A stretch of DNA of 64,000 nt from Oceanospirillaceae bacterium (lineage in GTDB: Bacteria > Pseudomonadota > Gammaproteobacteria > Pseudomonadales > Balneatricaceae), in NCBI GenBank assembly GCA_029938085.1, contig JAPYOS010000003.1, positions 186,001 to 250,000 of the forward strand. The letters run 5' to 3'. A program made the translations under genes and the position numbers. Every line of letters begins with the position of its first letter. The first letter of the stretch is position 1. The notes below the pieces were generated by a model. That model was not told the DNA's origin and ran no database searches. It worked only from the letters and a program-made list of their open reading frames with translations. Positions 11,837-16,762 of this stretch are shown piece after piece.

Positions 11837-11913
11837 GGAGCGGTAGTTCAGCTGGTTAGAATACCGGCCTGTCACGCCGGGGGTCGCGGGTTCAAATCCC
11901 GTCCGTTCCGCCA
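11837..11913 (+). tRNA. tRNA-Asp (GTC), copy 1
   Basis: A 77-base cloverleaf with acceptor GGAGCGG pairing with CCGTTCC, anticodon loop CTGTCAC (anticodon GTC), T-loop GGTTCAAATCC and an encoded CCA end. It is identical to the copy at 12092. It is the first of three co-transcribed tRNAs. Confidence 0.97.
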
Positions 11914-11985
11914 TTTATTTTTTTGTTCGCTGTAAGCCACCTTGAACTTGGCTTAAAGTTAAAAAATAAATAGCACTTAGTACAT

Positions 11986-12061
11986 GGGTGATTAGCTCAG
12001 TTGGGAGAGCATCTGCTTTACACGCAGAGGGTCGGCGGTTCGAACCCGTCATCACCCACCA
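11986..12061 (+). tRNA. tRNA-Val (TAC), copy 1
   Basis: A 76-base cloverleaf with acceptor GGGTGAT/ATCACCC, anticodon TAC in CTTTACACG, T-loop GGTTCGAACCC and encoded CCA. It is identical to the copy at 15038. It is the middle gene of the Asp-Val-Asp cluster. Confidence 0.97.
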
Positions 12062-12091
12062 AGTGTACTAAACAAGTAGTGATTCTAATGC

Positions 12092-12168
12092 GGAGCGGTA
12101 GTTCAGCTGGTTAGAATACCGGCCTGTCACGCCGGGGGTCGCGGGTTCAAATCCCGTCCGTTCCGCCA
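12092..12168 (+). tRNA. tRNA-Asp (GTC), copy 2
   Basis: A 77-base exact copy of the tRNA-Asp at 11837, with anticodon GTC and encoded CCA. It is the last gene of the cluster and is followed by a hairpin with a T run. Confidence 0.97.
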
Positions 12169-12283: not shown

Positions 12284-13384
12284 TTACAACAAACCTTTGT
12301 CTAGCTGGTCCAACCAATAATCCACGCTTTGCGGACGGCCGTAATAGTAGCCTTGCACCCGGGTAACGCCTGCTTCTTCTAATAGGCGTGCTTGAGCGAG
12401 TGTTTCTATGCCTTCTGCGATGATTTGAAAATCAAGCTCTTTGGACATGCTCACGAGTGCCTTGATAATGGCTAAGCTGCGAGGGTTGCCTTCCATTTGC
12501 ACGATAAAACTACGGTCAATTTTAACAAAGTCTGCAGGGATGTCGCGGATGCGATCCATGTTGGAGTGTTCCATGCCAAAATCATCTAAAGCGATGCCAA
12601 AGCCATTGTTGCGTAAGAGTGAAACGTTGCTTAACACCAGCTCTTGATCGTCTATGGTGGCTGTGTCTGGCAGCTCTAGGACCAAGCAATTAGGGCTGGC
12701 ATCAGAAAGGTCAAACTGGCTGATTAAGTCGATGACAAATTCTTTTGAATGAATAAACGTGCTGTCGGTATTAAACGCCAAATAGTAGTTGGGGTTGCGG
12801 CTCATGAGGCTCATGAGAATAGGCACGATTTGCGCCAGCGAGGTTTCTTTAAAGCTGGGGTAGACTGGTGGTGACAGAGCAATGTCTAAAAAACTACCCG
12901 GTGCCAATATGCTGCCGTCTGACCTATGCCAGCGCATCAGGGTTTCAAAACCAACGGCCTTATGGGTTTGGTTGTCGCATATGGGTTGTATATAAAATTG
13001 AAATTCGTTGTTGGCTAAGCCTGCAAGTATCGCTAATGGCGAGTTTTTGGGCAGAGTTAAACCGCGCTTATACCACTGTAATACTAAGAACATCATATTG
13101 CCGGTGGCGGCAAATTCAAGTAAATGCAGGTGTTTAAATAGAAACTCAATATCGGTAATTTGACCGAGGCTTAAGCTGCCTAGGCTCATCCAATGTTGCA
13201 ATAATAAGATACAAACATAGACCAACATAATTGGCAGCAACCCTGGCAGGTATGAGCCAAAGTAGCCGGTGAAGTCTGAAGGTGTCCATAATTTGCCGAG
13301 TATTTTCGCCGGTAACGCCATACATACACTGCCCACCAAGTAAGTGGCTATTAAAGGCCAGTGGGGCGCGCCCGTTAAGGGCAA
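12284..13384 (-). CDS. EAL-domain c-di-GMP phosphodiesterase, catalytic part
   Basis: This open frame of about 366 codons begins just after an in-frame TAA (13390-13388); the first possible start is TTG at 13384. It has about four hydrophobic segments (roughly 8-105) and then an EAL domain (about 125-360). Catalytic positions look intact: GFETLMRW (ETL in place of EAL, glutamate kept), the Asn in LAFNTDS, the Glu in LELPD, LDDFG, the Lys in FVKIDRSF, AEGIET and VQGYYYG. It should hydrolyse c-di-GMP to pGpG from the inner membrane. The upstream open frame 13388-13618 is in the same reading frame and supplies the missing first membrane segments, so the gene is probably one protein interrupted by a nonsense codon. 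Confidence 0.8.
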   Translation of the reverse strand: MPLTGAPHWPLIATYLVGSVCMALPAKILGKLWTPSDFTGYFGSYLPGLLPIMLVYVCILLLQHWMSLGSLSLGQITDIEFLFKHLHLLEFAATGNMMFLVLQWYKRGLTLPKNSPLAILAGLANNEFQFYIQPICDNQTHKAVGFETLMRWHRSDGSILAPGSFLDIALSPPVYPSFKETSLAQIVPILMSLMSRNPNYYLAFNTDSTFIHSKEFVIDLISQFDLSDASPNCLVLELPDTATIDDQELVLSNVSLLRNNGFGIALDDFGMEHSNMDRIRDIPADFVKIDRSFIVQMEGNPRSLAIIKALVSMSKELDFQIIAEGIETLAQARLLEEAGVTRVQGYYYGRPQSVDYWLDQLDKGLL

Positions 13385-13387
13385 TAA

Positions 13388-13618
13388 TTACCAAGCTAAG
13401 TGACAGCCAATTAAGGCAAGTGCAACACCCACCCAATGCTTTATGGGTGCCACGTATAATGCCGCGCTAAAGCAGGCAATCACCCATGTAGTGTCGTGTG
13501 TTTGAGGGGTGTTGTTAAGCAGTATGGTGTAGATGTTGACTATGGCCACAAGCGCAAACACCCACACATAACCAAATATGTATGGGCGGTTCATAATGAA
13601 TGCGCGTATTTGCTTCAT
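13388..13618 (-). pseudogene. N-terminal membrane part of the interrupted EAL protein
   Basis: 76 codons from an ATG at 13618, with two or three hydrophobic segments (YIFGYVWVFALVAIVNIY; WVIACFSAALYVAPI; GVALALIGCHLAW). It ends at TAA and continues in the same frame two codons later into the EAL gene. A bare two- to three-helix membrane peptide of this kind is not a known protein, so it is best read as the front of the split gene. The alternatives are translational re-initiation at the TTG at 13384, stop read-through, or a sequencing error. It follows fabV by 36 bases and may share its transcript. Confidence 0.65.
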
Positions 13619-13654: not shown

Positions 13655-14851
13655 TTAGGCGCTGATCAGACTTTCAATGTTAACCACAGGGTTAACGTCA
13701 GCGTCATAATCTACGCCGTCGAGGCCAAACCCAAATAGACGTAAAAATTCATCTTTATAGCCTTGCATGTCACTGACTTCAAAAAGGTTTTCATCAGTAA
13801 TGTTGGCCCATAGTTTTTCCACCGCAGACTGTACATGAGGTTCTATTTCTTTGTAGTCTGCACGTAAGCGGCCTTCTTCGTCTTGGTACGGTTTAGTGCC
13901 GTATAGACTCTCGCGGAACAAGAGGTCGATTTGCTCTATGCAGCCTTCGTGAGTGCCTTCTTGTTTCATTACTTTAAACAATAAACCCAAATATAGGGGC
14001 ATCACAGGTATGGCTGCGCTGGCTTGAGTAACTACTGCTTTGAGTACCGACACGCGGGCATCGCCGTCGATGCGCTGCATTTGTTGACGAATACCCACGA
14101 CTTTAAGGTCTAAGTCTTTTTTGGCTTGGCCAATGGTACCGTCCCAATAAATATCGCGAGTGACTTGTTCGCCTACATAAGTGTATGCCGTGGTCTTGCA
14201 GCCTGGCGCCAATACACCTGCATCACTGAGGGCCGAAATCCACATTTGCCAATCTTCGCCACCCATGACAGCCACGGTATTATCAATTTCTTCTTGGCTG
14301 GCTTGGCCAATGGCAAATTCCTTAATGATGCCCTTGTCGGTATCGACGCCTTGTTGGATTACGTCCTTGCCAATCGGCTTGAGTGTGGACATGTGTACTT
14401 CACCGGTTTTAGGGTGCTGGCGACGAGGCGAAGCGAGGCTGTATACCACTAGATCGACTTGGCCAAGATCGGCTTTAATGGTGTCGATGGTCAATTGCTT
14501 AACCGCATCGGAAAAAGCGTCGCCGTTAATGCTCTTGGCATAGAGGCCTTTAGCTTGTGCAGCATCATGGAAGGCTGCGGAGTTATACCAGCCGGCCGTA
14601 CCTGGTTTTTTTTCGGTACCTTCTTTTTCAAAAAACAAACCTAAGGTGGCGGCGTCGCTCGCAAAGGCCGAAGTAATGCGCGAAGCTAAACCGTAGCCGG
14701 TGGATGCACCGATAACCAGCACCTTTTTGGGCCCGTTGGCTAAGCTGCCGTTGGACTGTACATAGTCGATCTGGCTTTGAACGTTAGCGGCGCAGCCGGT
14801 GGGGTGGGAGGTGATACACATAAAGCCGCGAACACGAGGTTTGATAACCAT
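13655..14851 (-). CDS. fabV: enoyl-[acyl-carrier-protein] reductase (NADH), FabV type
   Basis: 398 residues, the FabV length. The N terminus [17 protein letters not shown] is diagnostic. The Rossmann motif [16 protein letters not shown] is at about 44-59. YSLASPRR is also typical of FabV. The catalytic Tyr-x8-Lys of this family lies in the [13 protein letters not shown] region. It reduces trans-2-enoyl-ACP in the last step of fatty-acid elongation. FabV enzymes are known for natural triclosan tolerance. It is upstream of the split EAL gene on the same strand. Confidence 0.96.
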
Positions 14852-15037: not shown

Positions 15038-15113
15038 GGGTGATTAGCTCAGTTGGGAGAGCATCTGCTTTACACGCAGAGGGTCGGCGGTTCGAACCCG
15101 TCATCACCCACCA
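15038..15113 (+). tRNA. tRNA-Val (TAC), copy 2
   Basis: A 76-base exact copy of the tRNA-Val at 11986, in the same orientation, with anticodon TAC and encoded CCA. It has its own promoter and terminator. Confidence 0.97.
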
Positions 15114-15290: not shown

Positions 15291-16146
15291 ATGACTATTC
15301 AGCAAACATCATTTGCCTTTGTTATGCTAGTTGCTTATATTTTTTCCAAGTGTAGGTTATGCTGATGGTGCCGCCCCAGGCTTAGCCAAGTGTAATGCTC
15401 CTGCTGCCGATCTTGTGGCGGCTTCTGGTCTTGATCTTACAGACCTCACCCAAGGTGACCCCTTCTACTACACGAGCAACATTGAGCCTCGTCCAACGAC
15501 TACGCATTCTGATATTCCGCATTTACCTGTGTATGCGGGTTACATGAGTACCAACGACACTTATCGTTTTGTGAACATAGTGGAGCAGGTGTTTACCCTT
15601 ATAGGCGAAGGTAAACATGGTTTGTGGCGGGTTCAGGAAAACGGCATGGTGCGTGAATATCGTCGTGCAGGTAAGCCTGGATTGCCTGCCAACGCCGATG
15701 TATTTGACGAGGCGGTTCAGCAACAAATAGCCCACAATTATAGCCACTACCTGCCACATGAAAGCTGGGCTGGTTATAAATTACCGAACCATCAAGTGGA
15801 TGAGCTAGGGCTCACTTATATTGACTTGCCTATCCACCATGCTAAATACGGCGCTAACTATGCGCAGGCGCCCATGGTTGACTTACCTCATTGGTACTGC
15901 ACATTATCAAGTTTTCGTTATCCTTATGCAAAAAAGGCCATCGACTTTGCATTTGCTCAACAAGGCGCTAATAAAATTGGGCCTTTGGGTATGAGGGCTG
16001 GGTTAAACGTGCGGCAAAATTTCCTTAACGTATTACACTTGAAGCTGTTCCCAGATGCCCGTTCGTGGGTCAATGTAGGTACGGCTAGCGAGGTGGATTG
16101 GCAGGCTGTGGATGGTGGCGATGGGCGCGGAATATTATCTATATGA
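15291..16146 (+). pseudogene. secreted protein of unknown function, 5' part (frameshifted)
   Basis: An ATG at 15291 opens a signal-peptide-like stretch (MTIQQTSFAFVMLVAYIF) that runs into a T6 run. Removing one T joins it to the long open frame that starts with PSVGYADGAAPG, giving a natural cleavage site after GYA. Read this way the mature protein continues for about 260 codons (LPIHHAKYGANYAQAPMVD, FRYPYAKKAIDFAFAQQGA) and stops at TGA 16146 just after a GGG triplet. Dropping one G there gives DGAEYYLYERLFF, which is the next frame. I recognise no family. Starting instead at TTG 15331 gives an uninterrupted but leaderless product. Confidence 0.6.
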
Positions 16147-16762
16147 ACGTTTATTTTTTAACGAAAGGTATGTTTTTATAGCCGCTATTTTTGACGATGT
16201 TGCACACCAAACCATGCCGTATGTTAGACCCGATGGTGCCTATTATGAACATTTAAAGCAACGCGGATTAACGCCGAAGAATGCTACAGTTACGCTAAAT
16301 CCATGGTTCAATTTAGAAAATGGAGAGCGAGCTAAAGCCACGGGCACGCATGTGTACGGTGTGCATCATCCAGACCACGCTTCGTATGATGGGGGTGGCG
16401 CTTGCCCCATGCGTGGCGGCGACTATGCTGATTACCCTAAAACGTCAGGTGGGGCGGGTTGGCCTACCAATTATGAAGAAGTAACACCTCTTTGTGATGC
16501 GGTGGTTTTGGATATTAAACTAACTGCCAACTTAGACGGGGGTAGCTGGAACAACCCAACCAAGTACTTACCTAATGCGGGCACCGGCAGGCTTGCCCGT
16601 GAATATCAAATTAAGCCTGTTGGTGAATACGGAAGATTTAGCGACGTATATCATACCCAAAGTGGTATTATCAATCCGCAACAAAGGATCATTGGTCCAA
16701 GCGAAACAATTACTTATAAGACAGTTCAGGAACCAGTTATTTACACGAGCATTGAAAATTAG
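16112..16762 (+). pseudogene. secreted protein of unknown function, 3' part (frameshifted)
   Basis: This is the continuation of the preceding gene in the next reading frame: about 210 codons (EYYLYERLFFNERYVFIAAI, NPWFNLENGERAKATGTH, YGVHHPDHASYDGGGACP). The internal ATG at 16112 has no convincing ribosome binding site, and the first residues fit as a direct extension of the upstream frame. No catalytic motif or named domain is recognised. Together the two parts would make a predicted periplasmic or secreted protein of about 480 residues. Confidence 0.6.

Follow-up and report, generated by a model that had tools for sequence, protein, structure and literature searches.

An EAL gene behind fabV divided by a single in-frame TAA in an Oceanospirillaceae genome, tentatively read as stepwise loss of its sensor

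A single TAA in an otherwise open frame raises the question of whether the gene is dead, whether the assembly is at fault, or whether the part beyond the stop is still translated on its own. Such a case is found in the window, by which we mean the whole stretch of 64,000 nucleotides analysed here, where a membrane peptide and an EAL domain share one frame and are parted by one stop codon. The genome (2.44 Mb, 46 contigs, 95.6% complete) was compared with 14 other genomes of the same genus, some of which are metagenome assemblies.

The split gene and its counterparts behind fabV

On the minus strand, the ATG at 13618 opens an ORF of 76 codons that ends at the TAA. The same frame continues through TTA (13387-13385) to TTG and from this TTG remains open for 366 amino acids, the closing TAA having its last base at 12284 (Table 1). 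Read across the internal TAA, the ORF translation comprises 444 codons, one of them the stop. In the downstream ORF, Pfam recognises the EAL domain (PF00563, E = 5.4e-56, 190 bits against a curated cut-off of 31.3), and the upstream 76 codons matched no Pfam family above its cut-off. The codons on either side of the TAA are collinear with one continuous protein in relatives, so the split frame is not a product of chance, which confirms the sequence-only reading that a single gene is cut here by a single in-frame stop.

Table 1. Features of the fabV-EAL locus in the window
Feature	Positions	Strand	Basis
fabV-type trans-2-enoyl-CoA reductase	13655..14851	-	Pfam PF12241, PF12242, PF07055
Codons 1-76, first membrane helices	13391..13618	-	ORF list, alignment with relatives
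Internal TAA, codon 77	13388..13390	-	sequence, 10-row alignment
TTG two codons past the stop, restart candidate of the sequence-only reading	13382..13384	-	ribosome-binding energy -2.9 kcal/mol
GGTGGG, Shine-Dalgarno-like, 5' of ATG 13321	13332..13337	-	-6.0 kcal/mol
In-frame ATG, codon 100, other restart candidate	13319..13321	-	alignment, ribosome-binding energy
Codons 78-195, remaining membrane segment	13034..13387	-	alignment
EAL domain, residues 121-351 of the downstream ORF	12332..13024	-	Pfam stretch

The split gene follows fabV after a gap of 36 bases. On the minus strand, the list of terminator-like sites has no entry between fabV and 13618, and the two genes are possibly co-transcribed. 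Four tRNA genes (Asp, Val, Asp, Val) on the plus strand, at 11837-12168 and 15038-15113, flank the fabV-EAL pair, which lies on the opposite strand. A neighbouring gene on the plus strand (15331-16762) is frameshifted into the ORFs 15331-16146 and 16112-16762 and has no Pfam match; G009 has one frame of 497 aa for it, 84% and 72% identical to its halves, and the frameshift in the window reflects either decay or an assembly error.

An EAL region 57-75% identical to that of the window was present in seven of the 14 other genomes (G001, G005, G007, G008, G009, G013, and G014), and G002 possessed the membrane part, open to the contig end. Nine relative loci were fetched, of which seven contained fabV, with the homologue of the split gene directly after it in all seven, the same place as that of the window copy; the other two were fragments of G001 without fabV. 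The intact syntenic form is a membrane-GGDEF-EAL protein of about 780 aa (G013, 785 and 777 aa; G005, 786 aa; G014, 779 aa), and its GGDEF and EAL domains were confirmed by Pfam in the G013 and G005 proteins. These intact genes resemble the window copy in their place after fabV and in their EAL (57-66% identical), but their membrane domain is complete and their GGDEF present, whereas the window copy has part of the former and lacks the latter. Two intact genes of this form stand in tandem after fabV in G013 (L042, 2912-7704).

The membrane domain itself gave no membrane-sensor match in Pfam up to E 0.01 in five proteins, and among seven aligned members none exceeded the Pfam cut-off, with one weak match to MASE2 (E = 2.3). 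Its assignment to a named sensor such as MASE1 was therefore dropped. The predicted structure of this domain was poor (mean pLDDT 55.9).

Lesions in the window copy and in other lineages

Alignment with relatives showed that an in-frame loss has left the window copy with no GGDEF domain and with the first half of its membrane domain, and that the missing part maps to the downstream edge of the membrane segment, at about 13034/13033. The copy of G009 (569 aa) has a long membrane part and the EAL and no GGDEF domain, also by an in-frame loss, and in both shortened forms the EAL is still in frame with the membrane part. In G007 a frameshift at a stretch of eight T (L045, about 3450) divides the gene; the site is prone to slippage, and the frame change is either decay or a sequencing error. 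The copy of G008 has several stops and frame changes, one stop lying inside the EAL. Among the eight syntenic copies, the window included, the gene is thus intact (three genomes), cut by a contig end (one), shortened in frame (one) or left with a broken frame (three). The sequence-only reading had held that the membrane sensor would be altered without its first helices; an altered sensor is borne out, but the stop is not the whole cause, since the gene had already lost its GGDEF along with half of the membrane domain.

In the fabV and rpoB nucleotide trees the window fell outside G009 and the GGDEF-bearing G007, G002, and G013 (support 100 and 97); if this is so, the GGDEF was lost separately in the window and in G009, and a loss shared by the two is less likely given this placement. 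Support for the window-outside placement was just 56 in the rpoB protein tree, and the EAL tree leaves the placement of the window open (rpoB was found in 10 of the 15 genomes, G008 being without it).

In the alignment column of the TAA, seven of the nine other rows had Gln, G005 had Cys, and G014 had Ser. A sense codon in all nine rows means that the stop is peculiar to the window. We infer that the TAA is a further and later lesion than the in-frame loss, and we agree with the sequence-only reading that the event is a late one.

Two explanations deny that the TAA ended the full-length protein. The first is a programmed or tolerated bypass, by which the TAA would be read through and some full-length protein made, as had been suggested from the sequence. 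We regard it as highly improbable. TAA is an efficient terminator of translation, the sequence has no feature suggestive of a bypass, and since none of the nine other rows shares the stop, a conserved recoding site is lacking; the points in its favour are the identical frame on either side of the TAA and the unexplained full-length-sized bands from the nonsense-bearing dgcQ and dgcN of Shigella (PMC11327459).

The second explanation puts the TAA down to a mistake in the assembly or its consensus, or to a mixed assembly that fixed a minority variant; in either case most cells would have the uninterrupted frame. Several things would fit such an error: the assembly is in 46 contigs, the frame is otherwise clean, and another disrupted gene is found about 2 kb from this one, a pattern expected of base errors. 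Nevertheless, the lesion is of the single-substitution type and not an indel in a run, and the damage to this gene seen in other genomes lends plausibility to real decay. Both of these points are weak, and on balance we consider this explanation unlikely.

The EAL part: fold, translation and rates of change

The structure model of the downstream ORF had pLDDT <50 at residues 1-112 and 70-95 by block in the rest, and is good from about residue 113. The solved EAL phosphodiesterases RocR and PA3825 were its top Foldseek match (E = 2.6e-20) and the best sequence match (E = 3.2e-29), respectively. Ten positions of the downstream ORF (E147, R151, N205, E237, D267, D268, K288, E324, E327, and Q344), which we take to be the metal-binding and catalytic residues, were identical in 10 of 10 rows. 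The eleventh key position is Asp in the window and Glu in the nine other rows; it is presumably that of the loop 6-stabilising Glu. Loop 6 is DFGMEHSN in 8 of 8 rows, with DFGMENSN in the broken G008 copy outside that set, and so differs from the canonical DFG(T/A)GYSS (PMC12943098). The catalytic residues had been described as conserved; this stands for ten of the eleven key positions, which are as in the nine other rows, but loop 6 is non-canonical throughout the family and one Glu is replaced by Asp. The EAL fold is certain enough, and the non-canonical loop 6 together with the Glu to Asp change makes the predicted phosphodiesterase activity uncertain for the whole family.

A restart inside the frame is possible. 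Ribosome-binding energies were -6.0 kcal/mol for the first ATG (13618), -2.9 for TTG 13384, and -6.0 for ATG 13321, as compared to a median of -5.4 for 35 long ORFs of the window. However, 8% of 500 randomly chosen positions are as good as this, and with eleven start candidates in the frame a site of -6.0 is expected about 60% of the time; neither restart candidate stands out from chance. The re-initiation at TTG proposed from the sequence survives in that this codon is in frame and two codons past the stop, but it has little ribosome-binding signal and ATG 13321 is the better candidate. ATG 13321 was dropped as a feature of the window only: G014, alone among the nine other rows, also has Met there.

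A codon model of the EAL gave w = 0.056 on the window branch, with w = 1 rejected (2dlnL = 39.45), and the same test gave w = 0.09 on the plainly broken G008 branch and w = 0.42 on the intact G013a, so that it cannot show present function. For the membrane part, w was 0.156 on the window branch versus 0.263 in the background, with saturated branches, and the codon test therefore shows no relaxation. Dating the loss by dN/dS failed, as the broken G008 was also low and the branches were saturated. Had there been no selection, the lack of any further stop in the 366 codons would limit divergence since the loss to about 0.066-0.078 substitutions per site at most.

On the window lineage we counted 10 unique changes in the pre-stop segment, 12 in the post-stop segment (22 over the membrane part), and 8 in the EAL; the corresponding counts for five other lineages pooled were 28, 48 (76), and 91 (membrane versus EAL, Fisher p = 0.0055, uncorrected). 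No deviation at p<0.05 was seen in any of the five control lineages. Compared to single lineages, the window differed from G009, G008, and G007 (p 0.003 to 0.012) and showed no significant difference in these counts from G013a (p = 0.43) or G013b (p = 0.15). The three-taxon rate test against G009, membrane versus EAL, gave p 0.0002 to 0.14 over five outgroups and p 0.0024 with the outgroup consensus (0.33 to 0.84 in four control pairs), part of this contrast being supplied by the fast EAL in G009. In branch length, the window pre-stop segment was the longest of seven and the post-stop segment the third, and the window EAL branch was shorter than those of G009, G007, G008, and G013a. The pre-stop and post-stop segments of the window lineage did not differ in the three-taxon test (p 0.38 to 1.0), and thus the stop itself has no rate signature. 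These results fit a sensor whose constraint was lost before the stop appeared and an EAL that is still constrained, and the rates suggest that selection acted on the EAL module until recently.

We tentatively favour a stepwise loss of the sensor in which the EAL is still made by restart from an internal start. The ancestral gene after fabV would have encoded a membrane sensor-GGDEF-EAL protein, from which, as the alignment with relatives shows, an in-frame loss removed the GGDEF and the second membrane half. The nonsense codon present in the assembly would then have interrupted what remained of the membrane part, and the full-length protein would no longer be made. Most likely the EAL would still be produced at a low level, from ATG 13321 or TTG 13384, as a protein that has shed most of its sensor; no other EAL domain was found in the genome.

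The c-di-GMP setting and known parallels

The genome yielded one EAL domain and one GGDEF domain, the latter in a well-conserved receiver-GGDEF protein of 312 aa, and neither a PilZ protein nor a flagellin was found; at 95.6% completeness these absences are provisional. The genome also has one HD-domain protein (L050, 1068-1988; G000 contig C2), which looks non-canonical: it has a stretch like HHExxDGxGYP, and its HD pair appears to be absent. It was accordingly not counted as a canonical HD-GYP, that is, as a second c-di-GMP phosphodiesterase.

This setting bears on the alternative that the gene is an outright pseudogene, whose useful expression was ended by the TAA, with no EAL product that matters and a frame still intact because the loss is recent. 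With no PilZ and no flagellin found, c-di-GMP may matter little in this organism; moreover, the same gene is broken by many lesions in G008 and by the frameshift in G007, the neighbouring gene 15331-16762 is frameshifted too, and the restart sites are weak. On the other hand, no second EAL domain was found in the genome, where the conserved GGDEF protein is still there, the EAL changed slowly on the window lineage, and both shortened forms stayed in frame. A link of flagellin loss to breakage of the gene was also rejected, as G005 and G014 are without flagellin yet intact and G008 has flagellin and is broken. A pseudogene is, in our view, possible but doubtful.

If stepwise sensor loss with restart is nevertheless the case, the only EAL protein found in the genome could now be sensor-free and ungated, opposite a single response-regulator GGDEF protein, as a near-minimal c-di-GMP circuit in the middle of simplification. 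We consider this extension rather unlikely.

The split is real as a sequence feature and of an ordinary kind, that is, wear of a c-di-GMP gene as already known from other bacteria. In Shigella flexneri, dgcE, dgcQ, dgcN, dgcM, and pdeR likewise have nonsense codons before an intact catalytic domain with a nearby in-frame start, and the nonsense-bearing dgcE, dgcQ, and dgcN still raise c-di-GMP (PMC11327459). This precedent makes a restart in the window gene worth testing, although the Shigella genes are mostly GGDEF genes and were tested experimentally, whereas the window gene is an EAL gene that has lost its GGDEF and is known from sequence. In E. coli, ycgG has been truncated repeatedly and separately, losing its N-terminal membrane sensor but not the EAL, as here; those truncations, however, are deletions and the enzyme still works (PMC10333796), while the window gene has a deletion plus a nonsense codon and a putative activity. 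The window gene is also similar to the EAL-type phosphodiesterase genes of Yersinia pestis inactivated during a change of lifestyle, but those losses are tied to biofilm in the flea, and the window gene is not linked to any known phenotype (PMC10333796, PMC3084805).

If an EAL product is still made, it shows how sensor loss by deletion and nonsense codon can uncouple the enzyme from its signal, here in a genome that yielded a single EAL and a single GGDEF domain. If the gene is dead, the genus shows several separate losses of one gene (the window, G007, G008, and the GGDEF-less G009) and would offer a natural series in which the shrinking of c-di-GMP signalling could be followed. In both cases the event is an ordinary one. 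As a separate observation, the broken copy of G008 contains within it an intact EAL gene of a different kind (L040, 3274-4458), which resembles one in G011 (L051, 1669-2817).
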